The position numbers were made by a program, and so were the translations under genes. Shown piece by piece: positions 5,274 through 45,858 of a DNA stretch of 45,858 nucleotides. The DNA comes from Burkholderiales bacterium. Lineage in GTDB: Bacteria; Pseudomonadota; Gammaproteobacteria; Burkholderiales; UBA11063. The first letter of the stretch is position 1; every line of letters starts with the position of its first letter. Below the pieces are notes generated by a model. The model was given only the letters and a program-made list of their open reading frames with translations, made no database searches and was not told the DNA's origin. Location of the stretch: the NCBI GenBank assembly GCA_019748155.1, contig JAIEPY010000095.1, positions 1 to 45,858 of the forward strand. The letters are read 5' to 3'.

Positions 5274-5828
5274 ATGAAGAAATTTTTATTAACATCGGGA
5301 ATTTTGATAAGCATCAGTAGTTTTGCTGACCCAACAGGAGTTTATATCGGTGGTGGATTAGGTTATGGTTCGCAACAAGCAAATTATCTTGGTTCATCAA
5401 ATAGTGATGGTACACCCGCACTTCGAGTGCAGTTTGGTTATCAATTTGCGACTTGGCTTGATGCAGAACTGGGCTGGAATTACCTAACTCAGGGTGGCAA
5501 TTGGAATAATCTCGGTGCACCATCAACAACCATATATGATTTTGCATTTTTACCTGGATTCACGCTTCCGGCAACACCAATCACCGTGTTTGTCCGCCTT
5601 GGTATTGATGCTGTATCTGCTAACTTAAATAGTAGCTGGTATAATCAACTAATTAGTAATTCGACCACTAACTTTGAATATGGTGCTGGTGTTAAGGTAA
5701 ACATACCAGAAACTAATACTTTTGTTAGACTAGAGTATATTAATTACGGTGCGGCGCCAAACAATAACAATTCTAATCTGACGACAACACCGACTGCAAT
5801 CATGATGACTGCAGCCTATGTGTTTTAG
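5274..5828 (+). CDS. Small outer-membrane beta-barrel protein
   Basis: A 184-residue protein with a signal peptide (about residues 1-18, cleavage near SSFA-DP), alternating amphipathic strands with aromatic girdles (VYIGGGLGYG, LRVQFGYQF, LDAELGWNY, FVRLEYINYG) and a terminal Phe (AAYVF), the usual recognition signal for outer-membrane insertion. Size suggests an eight-stranded OmpA/OmpW-like barrel. AAAAGG lies 13 bases before the ATG, longer than optimal. It is divergent from sppA and convergent with the lipase gene, with only 8 bases between stop codons and no clear terminator. Its function is unknown. Confidence 0.75.
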   Translation: MKKFLLTSGILISISSFADPTGVYIGGGLGYGSQQANYLGSSNSDGTPALRVQFGYQFATWLDAELGWNYLTQGGNWNNLGAPSTTIYDFAFLPGFTLPATPITVFVRLGIDAVSANLNSSWYNQLISNSTTNFEYGAGVKVNIPETNTFVRLEYINYGAAPNNNNSNLTTTPTAIMMTAAYVF

Positions 5829-5836
5829 ACTCAAAT

Positions 5837-6880
5837 TTAATTAGCTCTGACAACGGTCGGACAATTTTGGCTAAAAACATCACAAACCCAGATAAAATCT
5901 CGATAATTATACCGATCATGGATTGATATTTGATATTTAAAACTATCTGGAAGTGATGGCGGTAATGACTCATCTATACCATGATTTTTATCAATGGCAA
6001 TCACTAGAGCTGTTCCAAAGTGCTGATAGTTGAAGACATTAATCGACGAGACAACGGGGTCTCCAACTGAAGATGGAGAAAAATAGCCAAATATTTTATC
6101 TGGATTGCCAATATTAACAACTCGGATATAATTAGTAATAAGTGGCTGATATTTACTGACAAATCCCCAATAACCTACTGCAGGCTGCCCATAGGTAATT
6201 AGCTTAACTCGATTAGCAGGGATTTTATTATCAATTAATTTAGCACTAAGTAATAATGCTCCTGCAGCACCCAGGCTGTGCCCTGTTAAAACATAGCTTG
6301 GCTTGTGTGCCAGTTCAATCTGCTCCAACCACTCTTGCAGCGTAAGACTGCTATTTTGCATTCGAGAGGCAAGGACTGATTTTAAAAAATGATTAAATCC
6401 GCTATGAACTTTAATGGTTGGGTCACTGGCAAATGTTTCTGGAGTTACAGTTAAATTTAAAAGCCAGTTAACTAAATTATTTGATCCTCGCAACGAGATG
6501 TAAACCGTATTAGTTTTACCATCGTAAATAGTTAACGATTGAAATGAATCTGCCTCAGAATTTAGTCTGGTTGTTTTTGTAGAAAGTTGATGTAAATTTT
6601 GCCAAAATTCACCGCCTTGTGAATAGTGATTAACGGCAAGATTTTTAGTTGCCTTAATCCGAATATTCGCTTTAACCTCACGCCCTAGATACCAATTTAT
6701 TGGTAAGGTCGCATTGTTGATTACGAAGCTATCACGACATTCCGGACCATGTTCATTTTGACAATAAACTAATGCTGATAATTCGGATGATAATCGTAAA
6801 TCCTGATAACTAAGATTTGCTGCAAAACTAAAAGAGCCAAAACAAGTAAAAGCTAAAAATAGTTTTGTTGTGATTTTCAT
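5837..6880 (-). CDS. Secreted class 3 (alpha/beta-hydrolase) lipase
   Basis: A 347-residue exported lipase. From the start chosen here it has a clear signal peptide (residues 1-20, MKITTKLFLA to SFSFA). The nucleophile elbow is GHSLGAAGA with Ser202. Asp274 in VGDPVVS and His321 in ISIHDRYNY complete the likely triad, and YISLRGSNN is the family strand before the oxyanion hole. Fungal-type class 3 lipases hydrolyse triacylglycerols or related esters. An ATG four codons upstream (6892) exists, but GGAGATAGAG overlaps those codons and is ideally spaced for the ATG at 6880, so the shorter form is preferred. Six cysteines suggest disulfides in the periplasm or outside. Confidence 0.85.
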   Translation of the reverse strand: MKITTKLFLAFTCFGSFSFAANLSYQDLRLSSELSALVYCQNEHGPECRDSFVINNATLPINWYLGREVKANIRIKATKNLAVNHYSQGGEFWQNLHQLSTKTTRLNSEADSFQSLTIYDGKTNTVYISLRGSNNLVNWLLNLTVTPETFASDPTIKVHSGFNHFLKSVLASRMQNSSLTLQEWLEQIELAHKPSYVLTGHSLGAAGALLLSAKLIDNKIPANRVKLITYGQPAVGYWGFVSKYQPLITNYIRVVNIGNPDKIFGYFSPSSVGDPVVSSINVFNYQHFGTALVIAIDKNHGIDESLPPSLPDSFKYQISIHDRYNYRDFIWVCDVFSQNCPTVVRAN

Positions 6881-6933
6881 CTCTATCTCCATTTGGTAAA
6901 ATTTAGCGCTAATAATAAACTAAGCTCTTTATC

Positions 6934-8070
<1,137 letters not shown>

Positions 8071-8192
8071 TTATTTTGTGTATTGGTTTATCAGCTTAAT
8101 GGCTCGCGTGGAATGGCTCTCAAGAGCTTTTTTCTATTTCTTCAGGATCTTATTTTTCTCAATTAAAGCCAATAAAACTCTGACTAATTTTT

Positions 8193-9275
8193 CTATTGCC
8201 CGCAACATTTTTTATATTTTTTACCACTTCCACACGGGCAAGGATCATTGCGACCAACTTTTTCACCACTCCTTACATAGGACTCATTTCCGGTGTGTAA
8301 ATATTCGTAATCATCTTGTGGCTCTGCCAAAGTTGTAACATCACCATTATGAATAAAAGAATTCTGATTCAAATAACCCCACTCATCATCAAGCTCATCA
8401 TCATCCATGACTTTGCGAAATAAATACTTTGAATCATCGCTATTGTCACTTAACGCATCTACTTTTAATCCATGTGAATCGGCGTATTTTTGTGTTTTTT
8501 TACGCTCCTTAAGCTCTGGAATATAATCAGAAATTTTATGTAACTCTCCAGTAGTTAAATAGTTCTCTTCCAGATAATCAACTAGCTGAGCTGCAACTTC
8601 TGGGCTTAACAAATGAAACCAACCTTGCATAATTGGAAAATGGCACATTTCACGTGGCGCTTCAAACTCGAGTAACCAATCGTCACCACCAGCTGAGCGA
8701 GCTGGAAATTTTTCGAGAGCAAATTCAAAAACTCTAACTTTAAATCCAGCGGAAAAAATTTGCGAAATATTCATTAACGCAAATAATAAAATAGTGATTT
8801 CTTCATTATCCGGGTACTCTTCAGCCAAGCTAGTTACGGTTTCATATAAGAAATCCTCTTGATGTAAATAGCTCTTAATGCTGCGCAAAAATAGGGCATA
8901 AAACCCCCGGCAATCATCCAATTCATAAGCATTATTCCATTCCAATAACCGCTTAAAGACTAAATGATGACTGTCATTTTTTTCTATTAGCATATACGCG
9001 GCAATGTATGCTAAAAATTCGTTAAACAAATGATCAGCAATTTGTTCTATCTCTAACTGTTTAATCACTTGCCACCAAAATTCTTCATCAATTTGCTTTA
9101 AATTATAGCGCTTAATTATTTTTGTAACAGCCGTTAGTTTCTCATCAGAAAAAACATTGATACAATCTTCGTAAAAATCATCATAATTCAAACCATTGCT
9201 GTTAGTTTCATTATACTTTTGATAAATTTGCTGTAGCTGTTTTGGTAATTCAATTGGTAAGCAAAAATCCCACAT
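8193..9275 (-). CDS. SEC-C zinc-motif protein of unknown function
   Basis: About 360 residues. The last 22 residues hold a SEC-C motif ([19 protein letters not shown]) like the one at the C-terminus of SecA, which binds zinc and can contact SecB or ribosomes. The rest is helical and acidic, resembling DUF1186-type SEC-C proteins. An ATG at 9287 gives four more residues but lacks a ribosome site; GGTGA is properly spaced before the ATG at 9275, so that start is used. No catalytic motif is seen. The gene lies in the same direction as tgt downstream and the frameshifted gene upstream. A role as an adaptor or ribosome-associated factor is only inferred. Confidence 0.75.
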
Positions 9276-9349
9276 GATATTCACCATAAAAAATAATTAT
9301 TCTATTAAAATAGGTTCATCACCCTGAGTCGTTAACAAGTATTTCAAAT

Positions 9350-9866
9350 CTATTTCATTGGTAAAACATCAATCACCGCATGACCATCAAAAACAGGTGT
9401 CAAATGGCTATAATGCACCAACCAGCGCGCTCCAGTGGTAGTCGTTAGTGATACGCGTTTAGGATTTAAGCGCGTGATTTTGCCCACTAAGCGGTTCCCA
9501 TTTTTATCAAAAAAAGACACCATATCACCGACCCCAAATGACGTACGATCAACCGACTTAGATTCTAATCTATCAACTGAAATCGCTTCAATGTCCAACA
9601 TATAATAACGAATTGTAAAAACATGTTTGCTGTCCAAATCCATCACTAAAACTTTTTGCGGTTTCTTTTCAAGAATTTGCACTTCATGCAAGCGATTAGT
9701 ATGGTAATCAAAATAATTTAGTTGCTGTCCATCCAACCTGAACTTGATTACGAATATCATCCACTAATGATTGTTGATCTAAAAATTGATTTGCTATGCA
9801 ATAAATACGCCATATTTCATATGGGCTCGCATCGTCAAGATCGTTCTTTATAGAATTCAAATCCAT
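9350..9866 (-). pseudogene. Small conserved-looking gene split by a 4-bp tandem duplication
   Basis: Two overlapping frames form one interrupted gene. The first begins at ATG 9866 with ribosome site GGGGTG and encodes a helical N-terminus (MDLNSIKNDLDDASPYEIW..., 52 residues, stop TGA 9708-9710). The second carries on with GQQLNYFDYHTNRLHEVQIL and about 120 more residues, a beta-rich domain with a KOW/Tudor-like stretch (VGDMVSFFDKNGNRLVGKI). At 9728-9735 the minus strand reads TGGATGGA; removing one TGGA joins the frames into a continuous 170-residue protein running VQVGQQLNYFD. The family is not recognised with certainty. The downstream frame could still be translated from its own ATG at 9760. 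It follows the methyltransferase gene by 19 bases. Confidence 0.65.
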
Positions 9867-9885
9867 TGTTTACACCCCATTAAAT

Positions 9886-10791
9886 TTATTTGCGCACAAC
9901 ACAAGTAGGAAAGATGTATTTACTATCACCATAAATTGTGATATCATTAAAGCCCGCTTGCTTGAGTAAGCCACTTATCTGCTCAGTAGTACGAAAACAA
10001 CTCCAGCTAACCTCAAGGATTTCACCAAAAACAACTCTTGCCACATGATCATCATCATTATACTCTCCTGCTGTTTGTTCGCTAAGTTCAGGAAACAAAG
10101 GAGGGTAAGTTAAAAAACTAGTAACTAAAACACCACCAATTTTTAGAGCTTCATAAAGTTTAGTAAATAATTGGAGAACATCTTTATCTTCTGTCAAATA
10201 AATCGTCAAACCATTTGAGGAAATTAGATCAAAGTGGTTGTTAATTGTCAGGCTAAACGCATCTTGCTTTAAGTAGCTTATTTTAGGTGTTAAATTCAAT
10301 GCTGCATACTTTCGTTGTGACAAAAGCAATGAATCATTATCTAAATCTATTCCCGTTATCTGCAATTCATTAACTTGGCTAAAATCTAAATCTAATAGCT
10401 CACTCATTAAACCACAAGGAATTGCTGCAAGATGTGCCCCATTTTCAACTTTAGTCTGATTAATTTTCTTAAAAATCTGTTGCCGTTCATAAGTTGCATA
10501 AAATGGTTTCGAACGAAGTAAGCATTGCTCTAGCTCATGTAATTCATCAATTTGTTCACGCGGATAATTTATTGCATAATCAGTCCAATAACCATTGAGT
10601 CCACGATTAATTAACAAAAATTGTCCTAAATCAAATTGTGTTAGTTCTTCAAGCAACTTTAAGCGCAATGCTAATTCATCTGGTTCAGAGTATTTACATT
10701 GCAACCGTTGCTTACATTCTAAAATATTACTATTTAATATATTTTGATCTATTTGGGTATGCTTATGACTATAGTTGATGAATGATTGCAT
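9886..10791 (-). CDS. Class I SAM-dependent methyltransferase
   Basis: A 301-residue protein. The Rossmann SAM-binding features are AAIPCGLMSELLDLD (motif I position, with a PCG instead of the usual GxGxG), TGIDLDNDSL (motif II acidic residue), a motif III-like KQDAFSLT, and FDLISSNGLTIYL (motif IV/post-III). The N-terminal 110 residues are helical and probably confer substrate specificity. The substrate is unknown. Its ATG overlaps the TAA of the upstream permease gene (TAATG), so the two are translationally coupled. Confidence 0.75.
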   Translation of the reverse strand: MQSFINYSHKHTQIDQNILNSNILECKQRLQCKYSEPDELALRLKLLEELTQFDLGQFLLINRGLNGYWTDYAINYPREQIDELHELEQCLLRSKPFYATYERQQIFKKINQTKVENGAHLAAIPCGLMSELLDLDFSQVNELQITGIDLDNDSLLLSQRKYAALNLTPKISYLKQDAFSLTINNHFDLISSNGLTIYLTEDKDVLQLFTKLYEALKIGGVLVTSFLTYPPLFPELSEQTAGEYNDDDHVARVVFGEILEVSWSCFRTTEQISGLLKQAGFNDITIYGDSKYIFPTCVVRK

Positions 10792-11690
10792 TACATTTGA
10801 CTCCTTTTACTTTTGACTAATTTATTACGATACTGCGTATAAGTCATCCCAATAATCACTAACAAAATTATAGCGATAGCTAAATAAGTACTCGTTGAAA
10901 ATTGCTGCTGAAAAATAAAATAACCGTAGATAACTCCGGTTAATGCAGCAATTGCATTAACCAAAGAATAATAGACTGAGCCAACCATTTTAATTATAAC
11001 AAACAATAAAATATAGCCAAGCGTAGATAAAAATACTTCTAGTAAAATCAACGCAGAACTAAGATCATTAAAACGCAGCGGGTAGTACCCATGCTGAATC
11101 ACGGTTAAAGGGCTCACACACAGAGTTGACACCATCAGCATCCACAAGGCATAGTTTAAAACACTAGCACGCCCCGGATGAAAGCGCGAGAGGTAAACGG
11201 CGCAAAACGCATAACTAAATGGAATCAATAAAGCAAGATATAACCAAGCACTCCCCAAATCAAGAGTCAGATTGTGTCTATTAGGAACTATGATTAGAAT
11301 AACCCCAATTAAGCCAAGTAAAATCAATAATAAGCGGCTGATTGAGAATTTCTCATCACCAAAAGCTAACGCTAAAGGATAGGTAAAAATTGGCGATAAA
11401 TTGGCTAATACGGTAAGTAATCCCGAAGGGATGTGCGCTGCTGCAAAATAAATTAATAGATTAGGAATTACGATTCCAAAAACACCACAGAGGAGTGCAT
11501 AAACCGCACCTGCTTTTTCCAGCCATAGTTCGCCGCGTATAGCTTGGATGCATAGCAAGATAACAAAAGGTCCAAATGATTGCCAAAATGCATAACCATA
11601 GGGGTTTACACCATGCGTCATACAATATCCGGCAATCGCATAACCGCTTGCCCAATCAATACCCAAAAGGATCAACAAAAATAATGCCAC
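10791..11690 (-). CDS. EamA/DMT-family permease
   Basis: A 299-residue protein with about ten membrane helices arranged as two EamA repeats, a drug/metabolite transporter. Typical segments are PNLLIYFAAAHIPSGLLTVLANLSPIFTYPLA at the end of repeat 1 and the IYGYFIFQQQFS stretch in repeat 2; a basic tail follows (KSKRS). The start codon is GTG with GGGTAAG upstream. It overlaps the methyltransferase gene by one base, suggesting that the pair handle a common compound, though which one cannot be told. Confidence 0.85.
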   Translation of the reverse strand: MALFLLILLGIDWASGYAIAGYCMTHGVNPYGYAFWQSFGPFVILLCIQAIRGELWLEKAGAVYALLCGVFGIVIPNLLIYFAAAHIPSGLLTVLANLSPIFTYPLALAFGDEKFSISRLLLILLGLIGVILIIVPNRHNLTLDLGSAWLYLALLIPFSYAFCAVYLSRFHPGRASVLNYALWMLMVSTLCVSPLTVIQHGYYPLRFNDLSSALILLEVFLSTLGYILLFVIIKMVGSVYYSLVNAIAALTGVIYGYFIFQQQFSTSTYLAIAIILLVIIGMTYTQYRNKLVKSKRSQM

Positions 11691-41487: not shown

Positions 41488-41509
41488 GGTTGGGAAGGTG
41501 AGCCCAACC
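41488..41509 (-). terminator. Hairpin at the 3' end of the SRP RNA gene
   Basis: GGTTGGG (41488-41494) and CCCAACC (41503-41509) form a perfect 7-bp stem with an 8-base loop. On the minus strand it is followed by ATTTC, a poor T tract. It overlaps the mature 3' end of the RNA, so it competes with the long SRP stem; it also lies just after the end of the convergent reductase gene. Confidence 0.5.
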
Positions 41510-41591
41510 CTTGGCACTTGCTGATCCGCATATGGCTGCTTCGTTCCCGACCTGACCAGATTTTGCGGTAGACAATGCAAGGAGACCCACC
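41497..41591 (-). ncRNA. ffs: Signal recognition particle 4.5S RNA
   Basis: On the minus strand, about 95 bases fold into one long hairpin with the conserved domain IV: GGTCAGGTC, GGGAAC and GAAGCAGCC in series, as in E. coli 4.5S RNA. The closing pair of the GGAA tetraloop is G-C here and C-G in E. coli, a compensatory change. The ends GGTGGG(TCTCC) and GGGCTCACC pair. There is no Alu domain, as in proteobacteria. It is the RNA scaffold that binds Ffh for membrane targeting of nascent proteins. Ends are estimated from the pairing. Confidence 0.95.
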
Positions 41592-41784: not shown

Positions 41785-41946
41785 CCACTTAAACCAGTTC
41801 CATTAACCTTGGATACCCCAATCATGTCACTGGTAACTACATTACTTCCATTACTAAGTTGGACACTAAATTCGCCAGTATTAGTTGTCCGCAAAAATGA
41901 AAATACAACACACATGAATTATTTGGGGCTATCGAAAATACGTCAT
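41785..41946 (-). pseudogene. Remnant of a paralogue of the giant lipoprotein gene
   Basis: Bases 41785-41936 match 44943-45095 of the adjacent giant gene at most positions (with one indel), including the sequence encoding FLRTTNTGxFSxQxSNGSxxVTSD. On its 5' side it joins a copy of the start region: the ATG at 41946 matches the ATG at 45373. Compared with the intact gene about 270 bases after the start are missing, and an in-frame stop (CCAAATAA) and loss of the downstream part make it non-functional. Confidence 0.8.
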
Positions 41947-42019
41947 ATAGAACCTTTAAAACTTAATTTGGATAATGCATCCAGTGAAACAAGAGATCAC
42001 TACCCATAAATATAATGTT
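41944..42019. repeat. Direct repeat copy A (76 bp)
   Basis: Matches 45371-45446 in 71 of 76 positions. On the minus strand it encodes the last residues of the giant lipoprotein (FMGSDLLFHWMHYPN and stop) and at the same time the 5' leader, ribosome site (AAAGG) and ATG of the remnant paralogue. The two copies are 3427 bases apart. Confidence 0.9.
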
Positions 42020-45000
42020 GCTATTAAGCGCATCTATTGCTATCGGATACTGCCTTAATACATTTTGCGGAGGATAAGGTAAGCTTACTGGAACATTACC
42101 ATCAACAGTTACAACTCCAAAGTTTAATACAGGACCATCATAGCCTATATTATTATTGTAATACAGATAAAATAATAATTGATTATTATTGTCGTACAAT
42201 ATCTGGGGCATGCAATAGTGTGGAGATCCAAGACATGCATTAGGAATTGAATAAATGGCATTAGAAGATTCTACCCCATTATTTTCTACATATTTAATTA
42301 TCTGTCCACTAGACGCCCATGCAGCATATGCATTACCGCTTTCATCAGCTGTGACATAAGTGTTTGAACCAGAATCTACTCGATTACAGGATAAGCTTGT
42401 ATTACAATAATATATATATCCATCATTATTAGGACCACTAAAAGCAATAGCAAACCAAATATTACCATTGCTATAAATAACTGATACAACATTACCATAT
42501 GATGAGGTATCATATACTAAACTACCATCACCAGCCCAAAGATTCCCTAACGAATCGCCATATAACGGAGTTATGTTGGATGGTAAATCTGCAGAATAAA
42601 ATGAAGAATATGGAAATTTAGCTCCTTCATGAAAAGTATTGATTGATTTAGCACCACCTGAAGTGGTCACAAAATATTCATGACCACCAAATAGCGCTGC
42701 AGTACCAGCATAGACTGAGCTTGTATCAATAGGCGCTATAGTAGTTACTCCACCGTAATCGTCACTAAAATTAATTTGTATTGTATTCCATGTTTGATTT
42801 TCTGCAATATAAACAAATAAATCTGGATTTGTATCACCAGCATAAATATTACCACTTTCATCTGTTGCCAATGCAGATGGTGGATATGAAGATGGGATTG
42901 CAGGTAATGTATTCCAACAAAATACATATACATCGTACGATACAGCTTGCCCCTTAAATGCTTTCACAGTGTATCTAATTTTGTTCCAAAAATTCTGTGA
43001 ACTTATTCCACTAGATTGTATAGCACCATCGACATAAACTTCATCTAACGAAGATGCAGTACTAAATTGGGAAACAAAACTTGCTGATTCTTGATTGGTA
43101 TATTGATATGTATTCTGTGGCAACACTATAGTTATTAACTGATTAGCTGACTCAAAAGTACCAGGATATGAGTCGCCATTATAGATTATTGCAAAGCTAT
43201 TTAGCCCAACGGGAACAGCAGGTAAAAATGAAACATATACCTGTGAATTACCATTCCAACTAGATGCAACCGATTGTTGATCTCTTGTAGCATAAAATAT
43301 ATCATTTAAATTTATGTTATACGAACCTACATAATAATCTATGGTATCAAAAGTTACATCACAATAATCATTATGCCCTAATAATTTATCTTGACAATTA
43401 TTTGACACTAGAGTATAACCGATCACCCCTGAAGCTGGAAGTGTTACTGTAAAATTAACGGCGGACTCACTACCAATATTCATATAACGTAATGTAATCG
43501 TGCCAACCTCAGCATACGGCAACACAAAAGGGGAAGATTCTACCCCATTACCACCAAATTTATTATCTTTTAGTACCAATAAATTTATGTCAAATGACTT
43601 CAACGAATAAAACTCAACGGCTAAAGACTCAATCTCATGCTTATTTTGATAACTGACATCTATTGAACCGCTATAAGAACCACCATCACTTGTTGGGCCA
43701 GCTAGCACAGCAAAACTACACGAGTCATTCGCCCCCAAAACTTGGCTACAGTTGTTATATACGATCGTAAATATATTATTTTCATTACTTAAAAAATTAA
43801 TCGCCAAATCGCTTGTAGATTGGTAACCATAATTATTAACGGTAAATACAGCAAGAGATGATTCAAAATTATCTGCAGCCAAAATTGGGTAGTGCACATA
43901 TCGTGGAGATACTTGTATAATAGGATACTTTTCAACAGTTAAATAATTAAAGTTAATAATAGATCTTAAAATATCCACACCATTATAATAATACGCTACA
44001 GATACGGATGTAGATTGCTCGGATTCGACTTGATTAGCTTGATATGTCAAAACAATTGTACAAAAATATCCAGGAGCAATATTATTGCTAATTACATCAC
44101 CACTTAACATACAGCTATCGGATTGATTAGACTGTGAAAATGTAAATAAATTACTATTTGAAACAGCTAGTTGTATGTTAGACTCATCAACAGTGCCTGT
44201 ATTAGTGATCGTCAATAGCGATGACTCTGCTTGCCCAATCATAGTACTAAAATGATCTTTTTCTGAAGAGATCATTAAGCCATAGTGTCCAACGCCTTTA
44301 TAAGTGACATCTGAAACATAATTATCTGCTACACCACCACTATATGCTACACTTAATATTGTATTATACGTACCAAACATAGTATTGGGACTAAAGCTAG
44401 TAGTGTAACTACAGCTCGATTTTGGGGGTAATATACCTGTACAAGTATTACCAGCAGTACTGATACCATTCAATGACGTTAAAACCAATGTAAATGATAT
44501 ACTGGTCTGATTACCAGCATTATAAATTGTAAATACTTGGCTTTCATTACTCGTGCTTAACACTGCATTTTGTGGTATCAAATTCAATATGCTGGTTGAT
44601 GATAATTGCGTTACGGTGATAAATGTAGTCGATGTATCGATAGCCGTATATATTCCATCTATTGTATTACCGATTTGCGCATAAATTGGCATTATCGCTG
44701 TACTTGAGGGCAAGCTTAATGCAAATGTTACCATATAACCTTGAGTAAGGCTTTCTACTCCATTTTTGCTATTTAGTACTACGTAATCTAACTTAGATCC
44801 ACTTGAATCAGTAAGCTTAATTGTATTAAAATCACTGCCGATTGATGATGAATTTACTAGCGCACTCACAACTACTCGTGTTTCTAATCCATTACGGTTA
44901 GTTATAACATACGGCACACTTATCAATTTTATTCCATCTGCACCACTTAAGCTAGTTGTATTAACCTTGGATATCCCAATTACATCACTGGTAACTATAC

Positions 45001-45373
45001 TGCTTCCATTACTCACCTGAATACTAAATCCGCCAGTATTAGTTGTACGCAAAAATGAAAAATATAGCGCGCATGAATTATTTGGCGCTATCGAATTACA
45101 CTGATTGGCTCCTAATGTAATCGACGTATTTGTAATATTATTTGATATAGTGTAATTAAGATTAGTCAACGAAGTATTTGAATTATTGTATAAATATACA
45201 TAACCATCAGTTCTAACAGAGCTATCATTTGGTAAGTAATATGGCGTTGATATACCTAGCAAACTCAAGTCTTGCACTGGATTAGATGGGGCATTTACAG
45301 AGGAGGATTTACCCCCGCAAGATATCAGTAATACCAAGCAAAATAGCCATATAACATATCTTAAATACTTCAT
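41963..45373 (-). CDS. Giant surface lipoprotein with repeated Ig-like domains and a propeller-like C-terminus
   Basis: A 1136-residue protein. The leader ends in a lipobox (LVLLISC, Cys19). After a Ser/Asn-rich linker come several domains of about 100-130 residues (to about residue 700) with the cysteine-bearing signature NxC-x(5-12)-SC-x(5)-F (for example NQCNSIAPNNSCALYFSF, NTCTGILPPKSSC), as in choice-of-anchor D/ASPM-SPD-2-Hydin type domains. The last third (about 820-1136) has propeller-like strands (DESGNIYAGD, DESGNAYAAW, SLGNLWAGDG). Composition is rich in Ser, Asn and Thr. AAAGG precedes the ATG. No catalytic motif is seen; adhesion or surface binding is inferred. Flanking repeats show it was part of a tandem array. 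Confidence 0.75.
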   Translation of the reverse strand: MKYLRYVIWLFCLVLLISCGGKSSSVNAPSNPVQDLSLLGISTPYYLPNDSSVRTDGYVYLYNNSNTSLTNLNYTISNNITNTSITLGANQCNSIAPNNSCALYFSFLRTTNTGGFSIQVSNGSSIVTSDVIGISKVNTTSLSGADGIKLISVPYVITNRNGLETRVVVSALVNSSSIGSDFNTIKLTDSSGSKLDYVVLNSKNGVESLTQGYMVTFALSLPSSTAIMPIYAQIGNTIDGIYTAIDTSTTFITVTQLSSTSILNLIPQNAVLSTSNESQVFTIYNAGNQTSISFTLVLTSLNGISTAGNTCTGILPPKSSCSYTTSFSPNTMFGTYNTILSVAYSGGVADNYVSDVTYKGVGHYGLMISSEKDHFSTMIGQAESSLLTITNTGTVDESNIQLAVSNSNLFTFSQSNQSDSCMLSGDVISNNIAPGYFCTIVLTYQANQVESEQSTSVSVAYYYNGVDILRSIINFNYLTVEKYPIIQVSPRYVHYPILAADNFESSLAVFTVNNYGYQSTSDLAINFLSNENNIFTIVYNNCSQVLGANDSCSFAVLAGPTSDGGSYSGSIDVSYQNKHEIESLAVEFYSLKSFDINLLVLKDNKFGGNGVESSPFVLPYAEVGTITLRYMNIGSESAVNFTVTLPASGVIGYTLVSNNCQDKLLGHNDYCDVTFDTIDYYVGSYNINLNDIFYATRDQQSVASSWNGNSQVYVSFLPAVPVGLNSFAIIYNGDSYPGTFESANQLITIVLPQNTYQYTNQESASFVSQFSTASSLDEVYVDGAIQSSGISSQNFWNKIRYTVKAFKGQAVSYDVYVFCWNTLPAIPSSYPPSALATDESGNIYAGDTNPDLFVYIAENQTWNTIQINFSDDYGGVTTIAPIDTSSVYAGTAALFGGHEYFVTTSGGAKSINTFHEGAKFPYSSFYSADLPSNITPLYGDSLGNLWAGDGSLVYDTSSYGNVVSVIYSNGNIWFAIAFSGPNNDGYIYYCNTSLSCNRVDSGSNTYVTADESGNAYAAWASSGQIIKYVENNGVESSNAIYSIPNACLGSPHYCMPQILYDNNNQLLFYLYYNNNIGYDGPVLNFGVVTVDGNVPVSLPYPPQNVLRQYPIAIDALNSNIIFMGSDLLFHWMHYPN

Positions 45374-45446
45374 ATAGAACCTTTAAAATTTAATTTGGAT
45401 AATGCACCCAGTGAAACAAGCAGTCACTACCCATAAATATAATGTT
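45371..45446. repeat. Direct repeat copy B (76 bp), start region plus tail of a lost upstream paralogue
   Basis: On the minus strand it reads SYNIIFMGSDCLFHWVHYPN-stop and then AAAGG and the ATG of the giant gene. The encoded tail differs from the giant protein's own C-terminus at few positions, so this is the end of a second paralogue, whose body is absent beyond 45446. A weak promoter pair GTGACT and CATTAT with 17-base spacing also lies in the repeat. Confidence 0.85.
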
Positions 45447-45565
45447 ATAGCTAACCCGATAGAGTTACCCTAAAATTTGAATTAAGAGTTAAAATTTAAT
45501 GTAAAAAACCAATCATATCAAATACAATCTTTATTTTAACTTTGACGATTTTGTATGAGGATAGC

Positions 45566-45775
45566 TTGATAGACTGGTTAAACAGAATTATAACATTTTA
45601 TGTATTTATTTGTGAAGCATATAAAAGTGAGTTACTTTTGTATTGTGAAAGATTTAGTAATTATGGTGACTTATCATTTAGCGATGAAAAGGCTTTAGTA
45701 ATTTACATGAGTAGTATTATGGATGAGAAAAGAACTGAGAAGCAGATTTATAATCATGCCAGAGACTATTGGTAA
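45566..45775 (+). CDS. Hypothetical small protein
   Basis: A 69-residue frame from TTG 45566, with GAGG five bases upstream; the frame is open up to 45542 with a further TTG but no ATG. The product starts (M)IDWLNRIITFYVFICEAYKSE and ends RDYW, amphipathic and helical with three cysteines across the full frame or two here. No family is recognised. The lack of ATG means it may be the remains of a longer gene. An 11-bp inverted repeat follows at 45798-45843. Confidence 0.35.
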   Translation: MIDWLNRIITFYVFICEAYKSELLLYCERFSNYGDLSFSDEKALVIYMSSIMDEKRTEKQIYNHARDYW

Positions 45776-45797
45776 CATTTATCTTCGTACCTTACAC

Positions 45798-45843
45798 TTA
45801 ATTCAAGATTAACCATGTAACACACTGATTATTCTTGAATTAA
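45798..45843. repeat. Inverted repeat near the right edge
   Basis: TTAATTCAAGA (45798-45808) and TCTTGAATTAA (45833-45843) are perfect 11-bp complements with a 24-base loop, 23 bases after the hypothetical gene. There is no T tract. It could be a terminator-like hairpin, an operator or the end of an element that continues outside the window. Confidence 0.5.
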
Positions 45844-45858
45844 CCTCAAATAAATCTT

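Follow-up and report, generated by a model that had tools for sequence, protein, structure and literature searches.

Two questions are raised by the locus near one end of the window, by which we mean the whole analysed stretch of 45,858 nucleotides (contig JAIEPY010000095.1 of the Burkholderiales assembly GCA_019748155.1): how a giant lipoprotein gene came to be bracketed by direct repeats, and whether this arrangement still generates variation. The original prediction held that at least three paralogous genes had once stood head to tail, that the 3′ end of each doubled as promoter and leader of the next, and that recombination through the repeats could delete, amplify or exchange surface proteins, as in antigen-diversification loci. 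In our assessment the locus is very probably what decay has left of a tandem array of about three lipoprotein units, rather than a locus at which antigens are still switched.

Units, remnants and junctions

The features of the locus are collected in Table 1. Repeat copies A and B are identical at 82 of 90 positions and recur with a period of 3427 bp (E about 2e-30 as a DNA match), and their best 76-mer, 71/76 identical at 41944 and 45371, reproduces in every particular the repeat first described as bracketing the 1136-residue lipoprotein gene. In both copies the stop of one gene and the start of the next are separated by 17 nt, with 16/17 positions of the gap identical; the 76–90-bp repeat is simply a unit junction, one per boundary.

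Table 1. Coordinates of the genes, remnants, repeats and insertion sequences of the locus
Feature	Position	Strand	Remarks
4.5S/SRP RNA gene (ffs)	41494-41591	(-)	downstream bound of the array
5′ remnant of downstream paralogue	41785-41929	(-)	84% to CDS nt ~279-431 of the 1136-aa gene
Repeat copy A	41930-42019	(-)	last 18 codons and stop of the 1136-aa gene, 17-nt spacer with ribosome-binding site, start of downstream paralogue
Intact 1136-aa lipoprotein gene	41963-45373	(-)	single ORF between repeat copies A and B
Repeat copy B	45357-45446	(-)	tail of lost upstream paralogue, 17-nt spacer, start of intact gene
Upstream paralogue tail NIIFMGSDCLFHWVHYPN*	45390-45446	(-)	18 codons and stop
IS1 remnant	45447-45782	(+)	N-terminal transposase fragment 45567-45776
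9-bp target duplication AACATTTAT	45774-45782		flanks IS2
IS2, first 76 bp (end CTTCGTACC...)	to 45858	(.)	9-bp duplication plus IS2, 45774-45858

Copy B encodes the C-terminus of an upstream paralogue that is otherwise lost, as had been proposed: its tail, NIIFMGSDCLFHWVHYPN, aligns against the intact gene's own end, NIIFMGSDLLFHWMHYPN, and the homology runs up to 45446. Copy A likewise holds the C-terminus of the intact gene and the start of a truncated paralogue. The additional match of that paralogue to the 5′ part of the gene stands as well (84% over 153 nt, fading at 41785), but it does not join directly onto the start codon, for about 267 nt are deleted immediately after codon 4–5; a 1-nt deletion, which shifts the frame, and a stop are also present. 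An intact unit therefore lies between the 3′ end of one further unit and a 5′ piece of another, only one of them being intact. Together with arrays of the same family in congeners, these parts uphold in outline the proposal of at least three units head to tail, three complete units never being directly seen.

The intact gene is predicted from its translation, inspected by eye, to encode a bacterial lipoprotein whose signal peptide carries a lipobox cysteine (LLISC, MKYLRYVIWLFCLVLLISCGG), and the product would presumably be located at the cell surface. Its first ~730 residues appear to carry Ig-like repeats resembling the choice-of-anchor D or HYDIN type. The likeness to choice-of-anchor D and HYDIN-ASH proteins amounts to a weak profile match (NF012200, residues 508–577, 33.6 bits, E 4e-8) that falls below the curated cut-off of 45 bits, and the Pfam Ig matches are weak in this protein and its relatives alike. 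The C-terminal part, in contrast to choice-of-anchor D proteins, is unique; its propeller signal is weak, and an AlphaFold model of the last 445 residues, computed without an alignment, is unusable (pLDDT 33). No Lcl_C/DUF1566 domain was found by domain search. The closest proteins in congeners share at most 34% amino acid identity, which leaves the gene with no close orthologue; a genome-wide scan of the named genomes with the 1136-aa protein gave no match, and the family tree leaves the gene unplaced (end branch 2.12, no starred group).

The search for additional copies of the 76-mer and of the C-terminal tail that the original prediction called for returned none. The repeat, the tail and the C-terminal 400 residues have no further copies elsewhere in the genome, and none beyond chance-level matches in 22 congeners. 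With the C-terminal part as query, meaningful scores came from the 1136-aa gene and the upstream tail only, and the downstream remnant is found nowhere else in the genome or the 22 congeners.

Boundaries of the array and the contig end

Downstream, beyond ffs, lies a conserved block shared with AWTP1-26 (G022), the nearest among the congeners compared, with 93% amino acid identity in the neighbouring reductase. Upstream, array homology ends at 45446, exactly where the remnant of an insertion sequence, IS1, begins. Homologues of its transposase fragment occur in G004:C169, as a transposase, and in degenerate form in G011:C201; a 72% match at C53 proved to be just a small part of IS1. The abutment of array and IS1 at 45446/45447 could also be the product of a later deletion.

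The IS1 remnant is in turn interrupted at 45783 by a second element, IS2, in which the contig breaks off at a distance of 485 bp from the start of the intact gene. This proximity is what might favor reading the locus as a collapsed array, an assembly artefact. The copies, however, are not identical, which speaks against a duplication made in assembly, and the contig end falls in an IS whose target duplication recurs on another contig of the same genome, C39. There, the opposite end of IS2 stands at the start of the contig, flanked by the identical 9 bp AACATTTAT; the IS1 transposase frame resumes past it (LFPRFPSY), and glmS follows. We consider the chance of such an artefact close to negligible. 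A hidden extension of the array beyond this contig is rejected, as the IS2 junctions with AACATTTAT lead to glmS. Since these junctions tie the contig to C39 and glmS, no further units are hidden between them, provided that IS2 inserted in a simple manner; the matching 9-bp duplication speaks for this. The IS2 end is common to several other contig ends. We infer the order reductase, ffs, 5′ remnant, intact gene, 3′ remnant, IS1 remnant with IS2, and glmS.

Transcription, recombination and age

The proposal that each 3′ end doubles as a promoter is not borne out. A promoter scan detected no promoter-like site on the coding strand within the repeat; its 26 hits compare with 25 expected, and the best of them (11/12) lies inside the IS1 remnant, outside the repeat. 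The 17-nt gap and the missing promoter-like site instead point to an operon-like arrangement, and this spacer, with its conserved ribosome-binding site, suggests that the units were co-transcribed.

An array whose shared repeats still recombine, with copy number and content varying among cells or strains, would fit the direct repeats that flank the gene, the same-family tandem arrays in congeners and the absence of the gene from the nearest species. Nevertheless, copies A and B share identical runs of at most 23 bp, a length close to the minimum for efficient RecA-dependent recombination. The neighboring units are fragments, an A–B recombination event could do no more than remove the single intact gene, the gap to glmS contains IS sequence only, and the genome holds no second copy. 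No other intact copy and no long cassette was found in the genome or in 22 congeners. The predicted capacity to exchange genes at present is thus not supported, and active recombination is a very improbable account of the locus. Given the short shared run and the lack of a second intact copy, ongoing recombination at the ffs–glmS array is not supported in this comparison, which covers one genome per species.

The repeats could alternatively have arisen had a mobile gene unit recombined into a pre-existing paralogue at the tail–leader junction, without tandem duplication. Such an event would account for the bracketing repeats, for a slot whose occupants differ among relatives, and for a gene with at most 34% amino acid identity in congeners and no close orthologue. 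No integrase or circular form was found, however; the repeats are in-frame coding ends, and the downstream homology extends well past the repeat, as it does in tandem units. We regard this explanation as very unlikely.

In G022, the interval consists of ffs, an unrelated 155-aa lipoprotein gene and glmS, and contains no gene of the 1136-aa type. The remnant and the intact gene differ at 18 sites in 119 aligned nt (~15%; codon positions 7/3/8), compared with third-position differences between the source genome (G000) and G022 of 37% and 44% for the reductase (GGR) and glmS, respectively, and 24% for tsf. As judged from these 119 nt only, the duplication therefore appears younger than the split of the two species and to have decayed since.

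The tandem-array reading is supported by junctions 82/90 identical at the unit period, remnants confined to this locus, a tail that ends beside an IS remnant, the missing gene in G022, and the arrays of relatives. According to this reading, the ffs–glmS interval would have acquired or grown three or more units, perhaps partial ones, of a large outer-membrane lipoprotein gene with Ig repeats, arranged in tandem with a 3427-bp period and 17-nt spacers and probably co-transcribed. The upstream unit may then have been truncated to 18 codons at an insertion of IS1, itself now a remnant and probably split later by IS2, while the downstream unit would have lost most of its body, keeping a frameshifted 5′ piece. 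A single intact gene would have survived this decay.

Arrays and retroelements in related genomes

The scaffold family is present in 8/23 genomes of the genus that were searched and in 0/38 genomes from the order's other families. Three family units stand head to tail in G002:C39, of which the first two share 54% identity and are reciprocally closest in BLAST; two are in tandem in G005:C54, and a more distant adjacent pair occurs in G003:C352. These intact arrays imply that array formation and loss recur. An outer-membrane beta-barrel gene of ~185 aa precedes lipoprotein units in G002 and G005 (L033, L043, L045, L046), which suggests a two-gene unit there. The C-terminal modules vary among family members, being Lcl_C, DUF1554 or the unique part of the 1136-aa protein. 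In the complete genome of Aquella oligotrophica (G016; strain P08T, from tap water, 2,820,660 bp; PMC6612550), two paralogue pairs (L034–L037) are 96–97% identical over the first ~2400 nt, after which their C-terminal modules abruptly differ; separate small secreted Lcl_C proteins are encoded just downstream. The only other close paralogue in the source genome (L008, G000:C68, 5502–11986) has a DUF1554 C-terminus, and lies directly upstream of a large gene that by eye resembles a nonribosomal-peptide condensation protein.

Diversification in this group appears to run through diversity-generating retroelements (DGRs) at other loci, on lipoproteins with Lcl_C domains. Two such loci in A. oligotrophica (L036 and L037; 2.18 and 2.41 Mb) target giant Ig-scaffold lipoproteins, the two genes being accompanied by an Avd-like gene, RT sequence or both, and by a template repeat; the template core differs from the variable repeats, in lipoprotein and small Lcl_C protein, at template adenines in 14/14, 24/26, 14/15 and 17/19 cases. 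The source genome has a DGR of its own (C61, L176, 250–5284) with Avd, a template repeat (2354–2488) and an RT split over two frames. Its variable repeats, located in an Lcl_C protein of 191 aa and a lipoprotein of 742 aa, mismatch at template adenines in 18/20 and 21/27 cases. Just upstream of this DGR, two intact tandem lipoprotein genes of a distant family (5465–8269 and 8402–11149; 934 and 915 aa) encode proteins with no BLASTP match to the window family. The RTs look incomplete or frame-split: the 2.18-Mb Aquella copy lacks a stretch present in G000, whose own copy changes frame, and of the Aquella RTs one shows a MutS_I-like match at its C-terminus and apparently misses part of its interior, the other being a fragment. 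A literature search for Aquella together with a DGR found no paper in the collection covered.

LdtA of Legionella is likewise a DGR-diversified lipoprotein, as cited in PMC8144416. A. oligotrophica members of the family share the Ig-repeat scaffold and lipobox with the window gene; unlike these DGR-diversified proteins (LdtA, G000:C61 and Aquella), the window gene carries neither an Lcl_C/DUF1566 domain nor a variable or template repeat, and RT and Avd are absent from its vicinity, the DGRs lying on other contigs. Lacking both domain and repeat, it is not a DGR target. A parallel with antigen diversification in host-immune evasion is not supported either, for a genus that is aquatic and found in tap water, with DGR-based diversification located elsewhere. 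A likeness in organization is offered by the lpl genes on the nuSa-alpha island of Staphylococcus aureus, a tandem lipoprotein cluster (PMC4470592) of head-to-tail paralogues; the window locus differs in comprising one intact gene and two fragments of an unrelated protein family, in an aquatic, Neisseriales-like host.

We tentatively entertain, at somewhat less than even chances, a display system that spans the genus, in which tandem duplication and loss would renew giant Ig-scaffold lipoproteins, C-terminal modules (Lcl_C, DUF1554, propeller-like) would be swapped at one fixed boundary, around nt 2410, and DGRs would hypermutate the Lcl_C tips. Were this true, the window locus would represent one of its burnt-out stations. 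The locus offers a clean, bounded case of how a tandem lipoprotein array arises and decays, its upstream break marked by an IS remnant, in an uncultured bacterium of a poorly studied tap-water lineage. It has also led to intact arrays and DGR-diversified family members in relatives, places where diversification is directly testable, A. oligotrophica being in culture.
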